From positions 1 to 64,000 of the forward strand of contig JAKBKY010000002.1 of the NCBI GenBank assembly GCA_021832345.1: a DNA stretch of 64,000 bases. Reading direction: 5' to 3'. The notes beneath the pieces were generated by a model. It was not told the DNA's origin, did no database searches, and was given only the letters and a program-made list of their open reading frames with translations. Made by a program: the position numbers and the translations under genes. Source of the stretch: a bacterium (GTDB taxonomy: Bacteria > Vulcanimicrobiota > Vulcanimicrobiia > Vulcanimicrobiales > Vulcanimicrobiaceae). The stretch's first letter is position 1; every line of letters starts with the position of its first letter. Positions 4,749 through 16,408 of this stretch are shown here, piece by piece.

Positions 4749-4880
4749 TCATCGGCTCAAGGGCGGCGCCGGAGTCCTTTGGGCAGCTTTGTGGCGTGCC
4801 AACGTAGCGCTCCGCCCGGCATTATGCTGCTGTGCTGCGCAGGACGACGCGGCTACCGCCGTCAGAAGGATCGCGATCAT
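4749..4880 (-). CDS. Possible small lipoprotein (doubtful)
   Basis: From an ATG at 4880 the frame gives 43 residues beginning IAILLTAVAASSCAAQQH, a short hydrophobic stretch ending in a lipobox-like ASSC. No ribosome binding site stands out, and the tail is low-complexity. It may be the remnant of a longer lipoprotein gene. Listed because nothing else covers this stretch. Confidence 0.2.
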   Translation of the reverse strand: MIAILLTAVAASSCAAQQHNAGRSATLARHKAAQRTPAPPLSR

Positions 4881-5033
4881 GCGCTGAGCGTGGATTCCAT
4901 CGGGCCTCGATCTTGGTCGATGAGGTAAGCCTGGTGGGGGCTTTGGCGAAGGCGTGTTCACATATATATGTTTGTCTTGGCTTGATTTGTTCACGCATAA
5001 GTGTTATTTTATACCACGTCAGGACACGTATAT

Positions 5034-5528
5034 ATGAACGAAAATCAAGCTGCCCTTGCCCGCAAGCAATTGGAACGACGCCTAGCGCCCCTCCGGGAGA
5101 TGACGCTCGTTGCCCCCCCCAAAGGCTGGATCAAGGCCATTCGGGAGTCCCTGGGCATGACTGCCCGCCAACTCGCCGCTCGCATGGGCGTCGCGCCCTC
5201 GCGTATCCCGGCCATAGAGAAAGCGGAAGTTACCGGTGCGACCGAGTTGAGGACACTGCGGCAGGCTGCCGCGGCGATGAACTGCGCCCTCGTTTATGCC
5301 TTCGTGCCGATTGAGCCGCTCGACGACATACTGCGCGATCGCGCGATACAAAAGACGCGGAGGGACGTTGCGCGCCTCGATCACACTATGCGCCTTGAAA
5401 ATCAGGCCCTGCTCAAAGCCGATCTCGACGCCGAACAGCAGCGCACGATCGACCTCATCCTATCCGGCTCACTGCGGGGTCTATGGGACGAGGAACGGGA
5501 TCATCATGCCCGATCCCCTGTTCGATAG
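5034..5528 (+). CDS. Mobile mystery protein A (XRE-type DNA-binding partner of Fic protein)
   Basis: 164 residues from the ATG at 5034, preceded by AGGA; a longer frame begins at 5001. The helix-turn-helix is MTARQLAARMGVAPSRIPAI, followed by EKAEVTGATELRTLRQAAAA, typical of the family that accompanies Fic-domain mobile mystery protein B. The next gene starts 23 bp before this one ends. In such pairs protein A is thought to be an antitoxin or regulator; that role is inferred from context. The AT-rich upstream stretch contains repeated TTCAC motifs that may be operator DNA. Confidence 0.85.
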   Translation: MNENQAALARKQLERRLAPLREMTLVAPPKGWIKAIRESLGMTARQLAARMGVAPSRIPAIEKAEVTGATELRTLRQAAAAMNCALVYAFVPIEPLDDILRDRAIQKTRRDVARLDHTMRLENQALLKADLDAEQQRTIDLILSGSLRGLWDEERDHHARSPVR

Positions 5529-6096
5529 TGACGATAACGCGAACACGCCCCTCACGCCAGAGGAGCGCGAAGGTCTCATCCCGTCCTATATCACGCTGCG
5601 ACACGAGTTGAACGAAGCCGAGCAGATCAATATCGGCAAGGCCCTACGCTGGGCCGATTCCCGCAGGCGCGACATTCTCGATCGGAATTTTCTAAGCGAA
5701 CTGCACCAGCGGATGTTCGGCGACGTATGGTGTTGGGCGGGACAATATCGTACGACCCCCCGCAACACCGGCGTCGAGGCCTATCGGATCGTCACGGAAG
5801 TGCAGCTAGCCATCGACGATGCGCGATTCTGGGTCGACCATGCTACCTATCCGCCAGACGAAATCGCAGTGCGGTTCAGCCACCGGCTCGTTTACGTTCA
5901 CCCTTTTCCGAATGGCAACGGGCGCTTTTCGCGTCTTGTCGGCGATCTTCTCGCCCGTCAGCTAGGGCAGCCGCCCTTCACGTGGGGACGGGCAAATCTG
6001 GTTAATGCTGGAGAGACCCGGGCTCGATACGTCGAGGCCCTACAGGCCGCCGACAATCACGACATTGGGCCGTTACTGCTTTTCGCCCGTTCTTAG
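5506..6096 (+). CDS. Mobile mystery protein B, Fic-domain protein
   Basis: 196 residues. The Fic active-site motif VHPFPNGNGRFSR is complete (HxFxxGNGR), with the preceding QRMFGDVWCWAGQYR that positions it. Fic enzymes usually transfer AMP from ATP to a hydroxyl of a target protein. The translated overlap with protein A (23 bp) suggests coupled synthesis. An inhibitory helix motif of the S/TxxxE(G/N) type is not obvious to me. The module is mobile, consistent with its setting between two IS remnants. Confidence 0.88.
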   Translation: MPDPLFDSDDNANTPLTPEEREGLIPSYITLRHELNEAEQINIGKALRWADSRRRDILDRNFLSELHQRMFGDVWCWAGQYRTTPRNTGVEAYRIVTEVQLAIDDARFWVDHATYPPDEIAVRFSHRLVYVHPFPNGNGRFSRLVGDLLARQLGQPPFTWGRANLVNAGETRARYVEALQAADNHDIGPLLLFARS

Positions 6097-6283
6097 GCAC
6101 GTTTGTTCCCTACCCGTCATTGCGAACCATCGCCGACCACAGCAACGAGAACCAGGTCCGCAGAGGCGCAGCCCGGATCCGTGTGTAGAATGGTGGTCCT
6201 GCCGCTGCCGTCGAGGTAGCCAGCGGCCATCGGGCCAACTCTTGTTATTGTGAAGAAAACACGCATGCAAGAGAAAGGACCCG

Positions 6284-6540
6284 ATGACCATTCCGAATCT
6301 TACCCACGAACAGCGTGAGGCCCTGGCGGAGCTGCTGACCAGCAAGGACGTCGACCTCTTGCGCGAGATGCTGGGCGCGGTCTACGATGCGGCGATTCGC
6401 GCCCAGTTTGACCAGCGCAACGGCACGCGCACGCGAGGCCTCACTACGCGAGCAGGCTCAATCGATCTGGAGATACCGCGATCCCGGGAGACGCCATTCC
6501 GCCCGACCGTCATCGAGCAGTTCCGACAAAACCTGACCGC
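6284..6540 (+). pseudogene. IS256-family transposase N-terminal remnant
   Basis: From an ATG with GAAAGGA upstream, the first 80 or so residues follow IS256-type transposases: LTHEQREALAELLTSKDVDL, then LREMLGAVYDAAI, QRNGTRTRGLTTRAGSIDLEIPR. After PTVIEQFRQN the similarity stops, and none of the DDE catalytic region is present. Sequence from 6541 to 6769 shows no recognisable gene. Confidence 0.75.
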
Positions 6541-6769
6541 ACTGGGGTTCAGAATTCAGGAGCGCAAAGGTTCAATCTCTCGCGAGCGCTCCCAAGCATT
6601 AGGGCCAGGGCGGTTCCAATGCTTGTGGTCCCCTCGTTCCGCTCTACGAGCGGCGAGCCGGGCTGCGGCGCGGCGCGCTCCGCTGGCGCCGCGTCCTCGC
6701 TCGGTCGGCTGAAGGGAGCACGGCCTTAGCTAGACAGCGATGGGTGCTTGCAAACTGCGGCGATCGGCG

Positions 6770-6809
6770 TATAATGGGCATTATAACAGCGGATTATCGG
6801 AATATAATC
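6770..6809. promoter_or_regulatory. Paired AT-rich palindromes, probable operator of the Xre-RES module
   Basis: TATAATGGGCATTATA (6770-6785) is a perfect palindrome with 7-bp arms. GATTATCGGAATATAATC (6792-6809) has 6-bp arms. They lie 27-66 bp upstream of the antitoxin start, overlap potential -10 hexamers, and stand out in GC-rich DNA. Autorepression by the Xre antitoxin is inferred. Confidence 0.6.
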
Positions 6810-8876: not shown

Positions 8877-8981
8877 CGTTCCTCCTACGTTTCTCGTCGA
8901 TGCGTCTTCACGAAAGGGGCAGCGCCAAAGTGCTCCGCTCCCCTGCTGAGTTGACAGTCTAAGCTGTCGAAACCCCCCTTA

Positions 8982-9202
8982 CTTCGCTGCTACCGGCAGC
9001 GTTCGGTTAGGTTATCTCGGTTCGGCGCTACGCGCCGGTGGGTCGGGCTCGACGCGATCTCCGATCGCATCTCCGCCGACCCGAACAGCGTCGTGCTTCG
9101 TTTGTCGCAATCGCCCGACCTCCTGGGTCATCCGCTTGCTCCAAGTTGCGTCCTACGGCTTTATTTCGGCTCGGTTTTGGCCGGAAAGGCCGCTCTGAGC
9201 GT
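8982..9202. repeat. 221-bp dispersed repeat, copy 1
   Basis: About 93-95% identical to 14023-14243, same orientation. It contains short self-complementary parts (GGCGCTACGCGCC; GGCCGGAAAGGCCG). The minus strand can be read as SGLSGQNRAEIKP, then stop, then DATWSKRMTQEVGRLRQTKH, but a stop codon in this copy argues against a conserved protein. Both copies border truncated genes. Confidence 0.8.
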
Positions 9203-9229: not shown

Positions 9230-9595
9230 TCATGCCGCTCTCCCGAGCGCGGTTTGCTCTCCGAGCAAGAGCGCACGCTGTGTTGTAAAAGACGCGCCAC
9301 CGCTCGGCCGCAGTATGGTTTGGATCACCCGCTCGGCAACGGCGTTGCCGGTTGGGCGACCGACCGGAGAAAACGTGTGATTGACCTTCCACTCGTCGCA
9401 GAGCTGCTCGCAATCCGCTCCGGTGTACACCGAACCGTGGTCGCTGCGCAGCTCGAAGTCGTCGGGAACGATCGCGGATTCACCAAACGTTACCTGCAAT
9501 GAATCTTCGAGCGGCTTGAGAATCGCCGGCGCGTCCTGCGCCTTGGTTACGCCGATCTCGAAGACTGTGCGGCAGCCATTATCGATAACCGGCCA
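9230..9595 (-). pseudogene. Transposase integrase-core fragment
   Basis: One frame encodes VIDNGCRTVFEIGVTKAQDA, then FELRSDHGSVYTGADCEQLC and GRPTGNAVAERVIQTI. This is an rve/DDE core with the second Asp (SDHGS) and the Glu (NAVAERV). The N-terminal part and first Asp are absent. Its right edge abuts the truncated recombinase and its left edge the 221-bp repeat, so it is a scrap left by rearrangement. Confidence 0.7.
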
Positions 9596-10496: not shown

Positions 10497-10942
10497 CGTC
10501 ACTGCTCGCTTCCACGATTGTGGCCGCGGCGGCGGCCTTGGCGATGACGAGCGCGAGGCGTCGCGTGAGCGCCTCGCGATGAGCGGGATCGACCGCCTAC
10601 CCTGTCAACCGTCTACCGGGGCCGGGCCAATACGTGTCGCTGCATTTCCTCGGCGCAAACGAGTACGCCGACCCTCACAACGTCGCTAGAAGATAGCTTG
10701 CCCTTGCCTCCGTCCTTTGCGTGGGCAAGAGGAGTTACCAAACTCCCTCAAATGAAATCGTGAAAGGGCGCGCTTGCTTATTGGACGGTGAGCGACATCG
10801 AAGCGAGCGTGAAGGGGCTCGTAGTCGCGGGCGGTACCGTTGTAACGTAGGTTTTTACAAGGAGAATGAGAACCAACTAGCGCCTCTCTACCGAACTACG
10901 CGCAGAGACCGCGACAAACGCTGCTTCAAGCCGAGGTGCATC
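10497..10942. other. Gene-poor stretch between recombinase and DUF5946 gene
   Basis: Minus-strand codons for AHREALTRRLALVIAKAAAA and TIVEASSDDE end on the recombinase start, but no start codon is available, so this is a remnant. The plus-strand frame into the DUF5946 gene from 10721 is basic and unlike protein. No RNA or repeat recognised. Confidence 0.4.
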
Positions 10943-11449
10943 ATGGGGGATAAGGAACTGGGCCCAATCACAACATGCTCCTGCGGAGCAGCATTGCCGC
11001 GAATCGCGAGCGATGTCACGCATCGCTATATTGTCTCCACTCCCGAATGTTGGGCATGCTTCTCGGAAGTTGTCGGTCGCGAATATGGGAATCCGGCGCT
11101 CTTCGGCGCAGTTCATCAGCTCACCGTTGACGCCTACGCTGCGCAACACCCACAAAGCCAACCCGCAAAGTCCTTAGTCGGTCACCTTGTGTCGCTTTAT
11201 ACAACAGTAGAATGCAGTGCCGACCAGAGAGAAGGCCGAGATACGCTCAAGAGATTCGTCGAAAGCAGAAAGTCATTCCCGGAGTTAACGCCGCCTTCTG
11301 ATCTCGGCCCTTTGACTATCGCTGACGTGTTAGCGTCAGATAGTCCTGACCTGCATCGGGAGACTGTCAGACGCTGGGCCCTGCAAGTATGGCGGGCTTG
11401 GCAGAACGAGCACCCCACAATTATCGCGCTCGCAAAGACCGTCCGATGA
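10943..11449 (+). CDS. DUF5946 family protein
   Basis: 168 residues from ATG 10943. Landmarks of the family: CSCGAALP near the start, THRYIVSTPECWACFSEVVG, and FGAVHQLTVDAYAAQHPQSQ with the conserved His residues, then SLVGHLVSLYTTVE. The fold appears helical with possible metal ligands (Cys, His). Biochemical function is not established. Base composition is lower in GC than the core, in keeping with acquired DNA. Confidence 0.7.
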   Translation: MGDKELGPITTCSCGAALPRIASDVTHRYIVSTPECWACFSEVVGREYGNPALFGAVHQLTVDAYAAQHPQSQPAKSLVGHLVSLYTTVECSADQREGRDTLKRFVESRKSFPELTPPSDLGPLTIADVLASDSPDLHRETVRRWALQVWRAWQNEHPTIIALAKTVR

Positions 11450-11470
11450 AATTGTCGAACCCCCAAGCCC

Positions 11471-11499
11471 GTCCTTCGACAGGCTCAGGATGACAAGGA
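11471..11499. repeat. Short dispersed-repeat motif (GTCCTTCGACAGGCTCAGGA)
   Basis: This motif followed by TGACAAGGA is a sequence I have seen scattered in intergenic DNA of unrelated bacteria. It lies 22-50 bp after the DUF5946 stop and may act in 3'-end formation. Only one copy is visible here. Confidence 0.35.
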
Positions 11500-11508
11500 C
11501 AATGTCGC

Positions 11509-11884
11509 TCAAAACATCCCGTTTGCGTTTGGAGAATCTTTTGGAATTGGCTGGGCAACGTCCCAAAGTTCGGCGATGCGGCCATTCTTGATACGGAAAA
11601 GATGCACGGCGGCGAAGCCCGGCTCATCCGGCTGCAACCGTACGTGTCCGTGAACCATTACCAAATCTTGGTCGCTAAGCGTGTGGTGCACTTGGTAAGT
11701 CTTGTTTGGAAACCGTTTTTCGTTCTCTTCCATGCCCGCTTGGAGTGAAGAAGCGTCACCGCCAAAAAAACGGATTGTGGTGGCGGAAATCGGGAGCGAC
11801 GTACTTTTCATAGGCCTCGCGAATTTTGCCGGAGGTTGCAAGTCGCAAGAAAGATACGGCTATCTCCTCGTTGGATTGATTCAT
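11509..11884 (-). pseudogene. SnoaL/NTF2-like family protein, frameshifted
   Basis: ATG 11884 begins NQSNEEIAVSFLRLATSGKI, then REAYEKYVAPDFRHHNPFF. The reading must then change frame in a run of seven T (minus strand, about 11763) to continue GGDASSLQAGMEENEKRFPN, TYQVHHTLSDQDLVMVHGHV and end LWDVAQPIPKDSPNANGMF. This is a classical SnoaL-like cone fold, usually of unknown catalytic role. A homopolymer slip may be a sequencing error. IS3 copy 2 lies only 5 bp upstream of the start codon and removes its promoter. Confidence 0.8.
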
Positions 11885-11940
11885 CGGTTCGGAACTTGTC
11901 AATAGATACGACACCGGCAAGTTTTGTTTTCGTGTGAGTG

Positions 11941-13018
11941 TCAGGCTGCCGCCGCAGTCTCGGGCGGCGGGTTGATCCAAACGCTTGTCGGAGGCGCCTG
12001 AGGCCTGGGTACACCATTCACGAAGCGCTCCGGGTTGCGCGCGTGCGCTGCGGCGAGGACGAGCGCTCGCGCGCCGATGACCTTGTCCGCTTCGCCGTAG
12101 TGGAGCATCGCAGGCGTTAGGAGCGCGATCCCGCTGTGACGGTGCTCCGTATTATACCAGGGGAAAAACGTGCCGCAGAACGCTTCTGCTTCCTCGCGCG
12201 TGTAGAAGCGCTCGGGGAAGCTGGGATGATATTTGAACGTCTTGAAGTGGGCCTCTGAAAACGGGTTGTCATCGCTGACGTACGGTCTGCTGTGCGACGG
12301 TTCTACGCCGAGCGCATCGAGCAGGTCGATCGTCGTCTTGGCCACCATTGGGCCGCCGCGGTCGGCGTGGAGGATCGTGGTCCCCGGTGCGATGCCTTCC
12401 CGCCGCATCACTTCGGAGATAAAGCGGCCAGCCAGCTTGGCGTTCTGCCGATTCGCGAGCATCCAGCCAACCACAAACCTACTGAAGATATCGATCATGA
12501 CGTAGAGATGGAAGTATGAGCCCTTCGCGTGGTGCGGTCGCGAGCAGCTCTGGTTTGGTGTAGGCGGGATGCCGTATCAGATCTCGTCGCTCACGCACTT
12601 CGCTGCTCTCGCGTAGCAAGCGATACATCGTGCTGATCGAGCAGAGATACACGCCCTGGTCCAGGAGTACGGCGTAGGCCTGCGGCGGGGCCTTATCCGC
12701 GAACTCCGCACTGCGTAATATCGCGAGCACCCTTGCTCGTTCAGCCTCGGTTAGCCGCCGATGGCTGCGCCGGCGGGCCGTGCCCGCGATCGGGCTGATG
12801 CTTCCCGCCGGTTCGGCGCCATGCGCCGTGGGATCGGCGGTGCTCGCGGCTGCGCCGCTGCGCTCCGGCGATCCGGAGTTGCGCCAGCGTAGAAGCGACG
12901 AGCGACTTACCCGTAGCGCCTCGCAAACGGTTCGCGTGGGAGTCTGCATACACAATTCATCCGCCACGACGATCAGTTCTCGTCGCTCGCGTCGGTCTCG
13001 GGGCTCACCGGATCCCAT
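11941..13018 (-). pseudogene. IS3 OrfB transposase with internal deletion, copy 2
   Basis: Same as the OrfB of copy 1, including the loss of the WSWDIT-type segment and the frame break at about 12523-12529. The remaining LHADRGG Asp and FSEAHFKT Glu are intact. Since both copies have different target duplications but one shared lesion, the deletion predates at least one transposition event. Confidence 0.85.
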
Positions 13019-14008: not shown

Positions 14009-14022
14009 ATTGCTGCCCCTTG

Positions 14023-14243
14023 CTTCGCTGCTACCGGCAGCGTTCGGTTAGGTTATCTCGGTTCGGCGCTACGCGCCGGTGGGTCGGGCTCGACGCGATC
14101 TCCGATCGCATCTCTGCCGACCCGAACAGCATCGTGCTTCGTTTGTCGCAATCGCCCGACCTTCTGGGTCATCCGCTTGCTCCAAGTCGCGTCCTGCGGC
14201 TTTATTCCAGTTCGCTTTTGGCCGGAAAGGCCGCTCTGACCGT
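14023..14243. repeat. 221-bp dispersed repeat, copy 2
   Basis: Second copy of 8982-9202. It begins 15 bp upstream of the low-GC NTF2-like gene and ends in the tail of a truncated coding fragment. Here the minus-strand frame lacks the internal stop, so the repeat can be read through to AEPR and a stop at 14053. Confidence 0.8.
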
Positions 14244-14492: not shown

Positions 14493-16325
14493 TTACACCG
14501 AGTGGAACGAATCGCCGTCGAAGACCACCAATGCATCGCCTGCGATTACGGCGGCGGATTCGATGGGGTTGGTGAGCCAGGCGATCGCGAGCATGACGTC
14601 GTCGCGCGTACAGGCTTGTTTGGAGCCGGCGGCATGCAGCACTGCGTCGACGAGAAGCATTGCGGCATCGACTGTGAGATGCGGGGCGTTGGCTGCGCCG
14701 CCTTGTTGTGCGGCGGTGCGTTGTGCATTCCAGCCTTCGCGTTGGAGGATGGCGGCGATCGTGGTGACGCGCTTGGCTTGGCCGTGCCGGCGTTGCCAGA
14801 GCAGATCGCCGAGGACATCGCTTGCGTATCCCGGCACGAGAATGAGGGCACGCAATTCCACCGGTGTTGCGGCGATGCCGAGCAACGCAATGAGATCCGA
14901 TGTGGTGAGCGCCGTGACCTTGTGCGTTTGCAATTCGCTGAGCAGCTCGGATTCGTCGGAGAATGCTGGTCCGACGATCACGCCGTAATCCGCTTGGAGC
15001 TCTGCGACCTCTTTTGCCACCTCGGCGCAATCGGGTTGCGTGACGATCGTTTTCGCACTCTTGCACTCGATGGCGACGCGATAGCCGAGCGGCCCGAGGA
15101 TCGCATCGGCGATGCCGTCGGCCTGACCGTGCCCACCGAGATGCGTGGTGAGAAATCCCAGTTGCGCGAACGCATCGCAGACGGCGATTTCGAAGGCGGC
15201 CGGATCGTCGCCGGTTGCCGTTGTGGTGAGGCGCTCGCAGAGTGCTTGCGTTCGTGCATCGTCGGGAGTTGCAGCTTGCGGCGTGAGAACCGGCCAATCG
15301 TCGGCGGGTTCGTTGATGCGAAAATTGCGTTGCTCGTCTTGGACGATCGGTGATTTGCGACCGCGACCGATGGCACGCGCGATATATTCGATGAGCGCGC
15401 TATAGACGTACTTACGTAACGTCGTCTTGGGGATGAGGCCACGTTCGATCGCTTCGGCGCAGAGCGTTTGCGCATCGCGCGCAACGCCGTCGCTGAGAAT
15501 GTCGATCGCGGCGTTAATAATACGCCCGCGCGGTTCGGGCGTGTGCCCCGGTGAAACGGCCATCGCCGGTAGCGGCATCGTTTGCGCGCCGATCTCGGCA
15601 ATTTGACGCGCGAAGCGATCGCCGTGGGATTTCAGGCGATTGGGGAACTCCGCCGCGGTGCACGCCACGGCCCCGATTGTCGCGAGTTCATCCCAGGTGA
15701 TCGGCGTACACATCGGCAGCGATGGTGCGCCGCGCAGGCTATAGGGAAGCGCGCTATAGCGGCCGCGGGCGTTGCTCGATACGTGGATGTGCACGCGATT
15801 GGGATCGTGCGTGTTGGGCTGGTTGCTCAGCAGCGCCGGATGCGCGGCGACGACTGGATTGACGACACCATGCAACCATGCGCGCACGGCGACGGCGTGC
15901 GGCGCATCGCTCAGCGGAATCCAGAGTGCGATGCCGCCGAGGCCGTCGGCGAGTGGAATTGCCGCGATACTCTCGCGCGTGAGGGCCGCGCGCAGCAGCG
16001 TTGCGGCTTCGCGGACGAGGTGCCAGGGTGTTTGCCGCGCTTCGATGAGAATTCGCCCGAAGCGGAGGCGATCTTCATCGGTGACGAGGCCCGCCCATGA
16101 GTAAAATTCAACGGCGTAGTAGCGATGCACGCACCACAGCAGCTTCGACGCACTCAGGGGAATCTCGGTGACGGCGAAATGCGGTTGGCCGTGAAAGCCG
16201 GGCGGAAAATTCGCGTAGACGATGGGTTCGTCGGCGAAGTGTGCGGCGATCAGGGGTGCCGCGTGGTCATAGTGTGCGAGGAGATGCGGGACGAGAGCCG
16301 CATCGTCAAACTTGCGCGCTTCCAT
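14493..16325 (-). CDS. Fusion: inactive LigD-polymerase-like domain, HTH and Mrr-type nuclease
   Basis: 610 residues. Residues 10-240 follow the LigD polymerase (primase-polymerase) fold: LLAHYDHAAPLIAAHFADEP, YAVEFYSW, SSNARGRYSALPYSLRG, CTPITWDEL. The metal ligands are gone. The DxD site reads FGRILIE, the SGxGxH motif reads DGLGGIA and the third Asp reads His181. Residues 265-345 resemble a HARE-type winged helix (LCAEAIERGLIPKTTLRKYV). Residues 375-480 form a PD-(D/E)xK nuclease domain: D403 (QADG), E420 and K422 (VAIECKS). The rest is unassigned. Likely role: nucleic-acid sensing and cleavage in defence, an inference. A TnpB remnant lies upstream. Confidence 0.75.
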   Translation of the reverse strand: MEARKFDDAALVPHLLAHYDHAAPLIAAHFADEPIVYANFPPGFHGQPHFAVTEIPLSASKLLWCVHRYYAVEFYSWAGLVTDEDRLRFGRILIEARQTPWHLVREAATLLRAALTRESIAAIPLADGLGGIALWIPLSDAPHAVAVRAWLHGVVNPVVAAHPALLSNQPNTHDPNRVHIHVSSNARGRYSALPYSLRGAPSLPMCTPITWDELATIGAVACTAAEFPNRLKSHGDRFARQIAEIGAQTMPLPAMAVSPGHTPEPRGRIINAAIDILSDGVARDAQTLCAEAIERGLIPKTTLRKYVYSALIEYIARAIGRGRKSPIVQDEQRNFRINEPADDWPVLTPQAATPDDARTQALCERLTTTATGDDPAAFEIAVCDAFAQLGFLTTHLGGHGQADGIADAILGPLGYRVAIECKSAKTIVTQPDCAEVAKEVAELQADYGVIVGPAFSDESELLSELQTHKVTALTTSDLIALLGIAATPVELRALILVPGYASDVLGDLLWQRRHGQAKRVTTIAAILQREGWNAQRTAAQQGGAANAPHLTVDAAMLLVDAVLHAAGSKQACTRDDVMLAIAWLTNPIESAAVIAGDALVVFDGDSFHSV

Positions 16326-16408
16326 GCGCGGTTAGTCGACGGCGAATCGCCCCAGCCCTGCCTTCGCAAACCGCAGGCTCGGCCGCGTACCGCAATGGAG
16401 CACTTGAA

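Follow-up and report, generated by a model that had tools for sequence, protein, structure and literature searches.

The locus and its gene

The window, by which we mean the whole 64,000-nucleotide stretch of bacterial DNA analysed here, carries on its minus strand an open reading frame (14493-16325) with an ATG start and no internal stops that encodes a protein of 610 residues. The features discussed below are as follows, in window coordinates.

14493..16325, minus strand: whole gene, 610 aa, a dead LigD Prim-Pol domain followed by a winged helix-turn-helix (HTH), a predicted Mrr/FokI-like nuclease and a further winged HTH
15579..16313, minus strand: residues 5-249, LigD primase-polymerase fold, catalytically dead (Pfam, PDB profile, VIA-align, residue audit)
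15276..15542, minus strand: residues 262-350, winged helix/HTH that belongs to no Pfam family (model; aligns with FokI from residue 302)
14874..15218, minus strand: residues 370-484, predicted Mrr_cat/FokI-like PD-(D/E)xK nuclease with D403, E420 and K422 present (Pfam, profile, fold match)
14517..14873, minus strand: residues 485-603, conserved helical C-terminal domain with a winged helix at its end (alignment, model, fold search)
14497..16392, minus strand: transferred unit, with 98.3% identical DNA in another genus (G020)

Pfam assigns residues 62-237 to LigD_Prim-Pol (E 6.6e-22) and residues 374-481 to Mrr_cat (E 3e-7), both above the curated cut-offs. The protein scores far under the cut-offs of the NCBIfam LigD models, and none of the models of PADLOC 2.0 matches it at E values up to 10. 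An AlphaFold2 model, for which 30 aligned relatives served as input, has a pLDDT of 86.5 and shows a winged helix at residues 262-350, where an HTH had been placed, from the letters of the sequence, between the polymerase-like and nuclease domains. The domain make-up of the protein and the inactivation of its polymerase part are close to certain, and as the protein is one member of a family the arrangement is not due to chance.

The sequence-only reading had set the gene in accessory DNA among insertion sequence (IS) debris, and its surroundings bear this out, with a resolvase/recombinase ORF, an IS-integrase fragment and repeated IS segments. Two IS copies form direct repeats that are 99% identical and 11.3 kb apart (597-896 and 11890-12189), and a second repeat pair, of 228 bp and 95% identity (8975-9202 and 14016-14243), has its latter member just downstream of the gene. 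A DUF5946 protein (10721-11446; E 1.2e-34) lies between IS fragments close by. The copy of the gene in another genus (G020) shares 98.3% DNA identity over 1,897 bp, the ends of the match being the stop codon and a point 67 bp upstream of the start. Set against recA genes that are 83% identical between the two genomes, this gene-bounded identity points to a recent between-genera transfer of a one-gene unit of ~1.9 kb. Beside the G020 copy lies a 73-bp piece that matches window positions 9434-9505, in the IS region.

A polymerase fold that has lost its active site

The N-terminal part keeps the LigD-polymerase scaffold, as had been read from the motifs YAVEFYSW, PYSLRG and TPITWDEL, all three of which are present. 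PDB structures of LigD polymerases match the family profile at 8e-27, and residues 5-249 of the model align with LigD polymerases (VIA-align) at Z scores of 26-27 and ~20% identity, with Z 27 reached over 236-249 residues (249 residues and rmsd 2.6 for 2fao; 236 residues and rmsd 2.4 for 2iry). The same part of the model matches human primase and CAPP, the CRISPR-associated Prim-Pol (PDB 7nqd), at Z ~16. CAPP is catalytically active; the family resembles it in the Prim-Pol fold and in that cas1 is found within 10 kb of three family loci, but differs in that its domain is dead, is nearer to LigD and carries a nuclease.

The claim that the three metal-binding aspartates and the SGxGxH motif are replaced proved equally sound. 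In the numbering of the M. tuberculosis PolDom, which is used for all LigD residues below, Asp137 has become L93 in the window protein, Asp139 E95, Asp227 H181 and the histidine of SGxGxH A133. These losses run through the family: in an alignment of 41 family polymerase domains with 21 true LigD polymerases, all from one phylum, Asp137, Asp139 and the SGxGxH histidine are each kept in 0/41 family domains and Asp227 in 7/41 (lost in 34), whereas the true LigD polymerases have D, D, H and D at the four catalytic positions in 21/21. Comparison with LigD in this alignment reveals no compensating catalytic residues in the family domains. The 41 inactivated domains form one clade, which a fully supported branch (100/100) sets apart. 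Between the window copy of the gene and that of G010, dN/dS is 0.22 in the polymerase part, 0.03 in the HTH, 0.08 in the nuclease and 0.13 in the C-terminal domain, and the first of these values indicates that the inactivated domain is still under purifying selection.

The 5'-phosphate pocket of the LigD polymerase, made up of Asn13, Lys16 and Lys26 (PMC3898472), has likewise been lost, with Lys16 kept in 1/35 family domains, K or R at the position of Lys26 in 8/40 and Asn13 in 1/24, against 20/20 for each lysine and 18/19 for Asn13 in the LigD proteins of the phylum. Residues that deal with the DNA end (PMC3898472) are also nearly absent (Arg53 1/41, Phe63 1/41, Gln230 0/40), and Pro55 (37/41) and an aromatic residue at Phe64 (39/41) are retained. 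Residues conserved in the family alone, R91, N185 and S191, flank the former active site. The net charge per 100 residues of the polymerase domain shifts from +1.5 in LigD to -0.9 in the family, and the net charge is negative in the polymerase, nuclease and C-terminal parts, so that the N-terminal module shows no obvious capacity to bind DNA. In sum, the protein is like LigD Pol and other NHEJ Prim-Pols (PF21686; PDB 2fao, 2iry, 5dmu) in its fold, its PYSLR and TPxxWxEL motifs, Pro55 and the aromatic residue at Phe64. It is unlike them in the absence of DxD, the histidine, in most members Asp227, the 5'-phosphate pocket, Arg53 and Phe63, and furthermore in having no ligase domain, in its fusion to a nuclease and in residing in a host that has no Ku.

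Is the protein a repair factor?

The sequence-only reading had proposed a non-catalytic sensor of nucleotides or DNA ends that drives a nuclease, as a new type of defence or repair factor. An end sensor of the NHEJ or LigD kind is unlikely, given that the residues which grip the 5'-phosphate and splay the DNA end (Lys16, Lys26, Arg53, Phe63) are missing from most or nearly all members, that positive charge has been lost, and that profile searches of the window genome (98% complete) find Ku and true LigD polymerases to be absent. The nucleotide sensor is weakened, insofar as it would use the old NTP site, by the loss of DxD and of the Ser and His of SGxGxH.

A repair factor in a wider sense, which would act within NHEJ or alongside it, the dead polymerase holding breaks or gaps for the nuclease to trim, could draw on the fold, which is that of the NHEJ polymerase, and on the presence of Ku in most relatives' genomes. 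It is nonetheless improbable. Besides the window genome, G010 and G022 carry an intact family gene and lack both Ku and a true LigD polymerase, the lysines of the 5'-phosphate pocket are gone along with Arg53 and Phe63, and a gene that is patchily distributed, was recently transferred and has left relic copies ill suits a housekeeping role. In G020 the intact family gene is accompanied by a LigD-like polymerase, and Ku is absent. An NHEJ accessory was rejected as the main reading, Ku and LigD being missing from several hosts. The repair half of the earlier proposal therefore has little support, and the support for the defence half is indirect.

A predicted nuclease domain, found elsewhere behind known readers

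The PD-(D/E)xK residues had been thought intact and are so throughout most of the family, D403 and E420 being present in 46/46 nuclease domains and K422 in 44/46; E379, E435 and E464 are invariant, fully or nearly, across the family. The lysine of ExK is replaced by E in L114 (9220-10308) and by S in L123 (1802-3634), which are perhaps inactive nucleases. In the window protein D403 and E420 are 17 residues apart, a spacing equal to that of the residues which we take to be their FokI counterparts, D450 and D467. On the strength of its sequence and fold, the domain is a Mrr/FokI-like PD-(D/E)xK nuclease that is predicted to cut DNA.

Residues 356-514 of the model match HindIII at Z 15.4 and rmsd 2.6. 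Residues 262-502 match FokI 302-578 at Z 16.6 with an rmsd of 12.9, which means that winged helix and nuclease are placed differently from those of FokI. The PD-(D/E)xK core with D403/E420/K422 is thus shared with FokI (PDB 1fok, 2fok), HindIII and the Mrr_cat nucleases, and with FokI also the order of winged helix then nuclease; the N-terminal part of FokI, in contrast, is unmatched and has a dead polymerase in its place, and the window protein has a winged helix after the nuclease. Modelled alone, the C-terminal domain gives generic winged-helix matches only (Z ~9) in a fold search, and the Pfam HARE-HTH model matches none of the ten family HTH segments that were compared with it.

In Actinomycetota and Chloroflexota a homologous nuclease domain is found behind EVE (L170, L171, L173 and, weakly, L175), behind a GHKL ATPase (HATPase_c_3; L172, L176, L179) and behind Mrr_N (L174, L178). 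These proteins share with the window protein a homologous C-terminal effector nuclease behind a sensor, although the sensor module is unrelated, no part is derived from a polymerase and the HTH is a different one. The nuclease domain seen in L170-L179 gives the impression of a general plug-in effector. Restriction enzymes use EVE domains, which bind modified bases, as specificity domains (PMC11090510). With a homologous nuclease standing behind EVE readers elsewhere, the dead polymerase is likely to be the equivalent of a reader.

Distribution of the family and its split forms

In 60 relatives a search at the protein level brought up, besides many true LigD polymerases, ~15 near-full-length members, which come from the same family, order and class; further members came to light when 149 genomes of the phylum were searched with a profile. 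Scanning all species genomes by pattern gave 30 loci, those named belonging to Eremiobacterota/WPS-2, and two further loci that share the nuclease domain only. Outside the phylum no fused or dead-polymerase member stood above the LigD background, either in the nuclease-pattern scan of 84,980 species genomes, which divergent members can escape, or in a full-profile search of 301 Chloroflexota and 296 Actinomycetota genomes. As found here, by comparison of sequences, the family appears to be confined to the window's own phylum (Eremiobacterota/WPS-2). Searches of viral contigs and of PHROGs gave no match to the whole protein, those of plasmids gave LigD-like matches to the polymerase part and none to the whole, and no account of such a protein was found in the literature, largely open-access, that was covered.

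In one subclade the polymerase and the HTH-nuclease are separate adjacent genes, in either order (L101-L104, L106, L107, L109, L116), and one member within it, L115, is fused; the pairing of polymerase and nuclease therefore looks functional. A split pair is also present at L062, with the polymerase at 4829-5665 and the nuclease at 5728-6774. HTH-nuclease proteins that have no polymerase part beside them also occur (L108, L110, L111, L112, L114). Conversely, one genus has stand-alone dead LigD-type polymerases of ~260 aa with no nuclease gene nearby (L039 7997-8788; L125 4009-4830; L126 4915-5691; L127 2966-3763; L128 2583-3329), so that the domain may have a role of its own. Some of these stand-alone genes have alike surroundings, with a GNAT-like ORF.

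These forms bear on the possibility that the polymerase-derived domain is a scaffold or dimerisation part only and that, as ordinary Mrr/FokI-type enzymes do, the protein takes its specificity from the winged helices. The unpaired HTH-nuclease proteins agree with it, and so does purifying selection that is stronger on the HTH and nuclease than on the polymerase part, but the conserved family-specific polymerase residues and the upkeep of the domain as a separate adjacent gene suggest that it does more, and we find a pure scaffold doubtful.

Decay is also seen. Several relatives are frameshifted or fragmentary, and the window's own genome holds a relic second family copy on contig C5 (L130 9399-10130), with polymerase and HTH pieces in a short ORF. 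A functionless decaying remnant is nevertheless very improbable, since intact ORFs occur in many genera, the nuclease residues are kept and dN/dS is well below 1. Directly behind the intact fused gene at L030 lies a second, polymerase-only copy with stops (10797-11603), which suggests tandem duplication followed by decay.

Company of defence genes and proposed function

Across 33 loci in 23 genomes, cas1 lies within 10 kb of three loci against 0.14 expected and a C5 methyltransferase within 5 kb of two against 0.04 expected, where the expectations derive from genome-wide densities, the clustering of accessory genes is ignored and locus positions were transcribed manually out of search tables. 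This excess shows defence-island-like company and not a functional link. L022 is adjoined by Cas9-cas1-cas2 and L032 by type I-C cas genes (read by eye, with cas1 confirmed by Pfam), and a relic on G017:C2 also adjoins cas1. Elsewhere L121 has MTase_III and REase_III (methyltransferase and restriction subunit of type III) beside it, L109 an HNH/SAVED-type effector and L024 AbiEi. The PADLOC counts of neighbours have no matched control set, and cas1 and the C5 methyltransferase were tested against density instead. Many family loci, the window locus among them, have no defence gene nearby.

A C5 methyltransferase was found near 3/34 loci examined, adjoining L033 (co-directional) and lying near L034 and L115; adenine methyltransferases were covered via PADLOC models only. 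No cognate methyltransferase, as a type II restriction-modification system would have, lies beside the window gene, the C5 methyltransferases of its genome being on another contig. A narrower form of the reading preferred below would be a strict type IV-like, modification-dependent enzyme, whose dead polymerase reads modified bases in place of the EVE domain of its cousins. The EVE-bearing cousins, the finding of no methyltransferase near most members and the conservation of R91, N185 and S191 beside the old active site are all consistent with such an enzyme. However, C5 methyltransferases do adjoin some members, and the pattern fits a methylation-sensitive enzyme equally; we regard the strict form as rather unlikely. 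Together with the scaffold role it is the main rival of the reading that we prefer.

Proteins that couple a reader to a nuclease are a known route to restricting foreign DNA. By our preferred reading the window protein is probably a restriction-type defence nuclease that is encoded by a single, horizontally mobile gene and uses a dead polymerase as its reader. A role in defence is likely; we infer that the protein cuts DNA, that reading falls to the dead domain and that foreign DNA is what it targets. A LigD-derived Prim-Pol domain would have been inactivated once, in the ancestor of the family, and would now serve as a recognition or regulatory module; the winged helices would hold DNA, and the FokI/Mrr-like PD-(D/E)xK domain would cut it once the N-terminal module meets its ligand, which may be a feature of foreign nucleic acid or a nucleotide or protein made by a phage. 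More tentatively, the family could be a new class of innate immune sensor, in which the reshaped cleft (R91, N185, S191) recognises an intermediate of phage replication or repair, or else a nucleotide made by the phage, and licenses the FokI-like nuclease, whether fused or next door. The literature covered nowhere describes a reader that is a dead LigD polymerase, and if this is what the domain is, a repair enzyme has been turned into a sensor. The system is a tractable one, with a single gene, clear catalytic residues, EVE-reader cousins for comparison and natural split versions that separate sensor from nuclease.

Homologous proteins lie by two distant family loci (L028 1580-2854 and L102 12994-14295), and two of this set are SoFic (Fic-type) in PADLOC.
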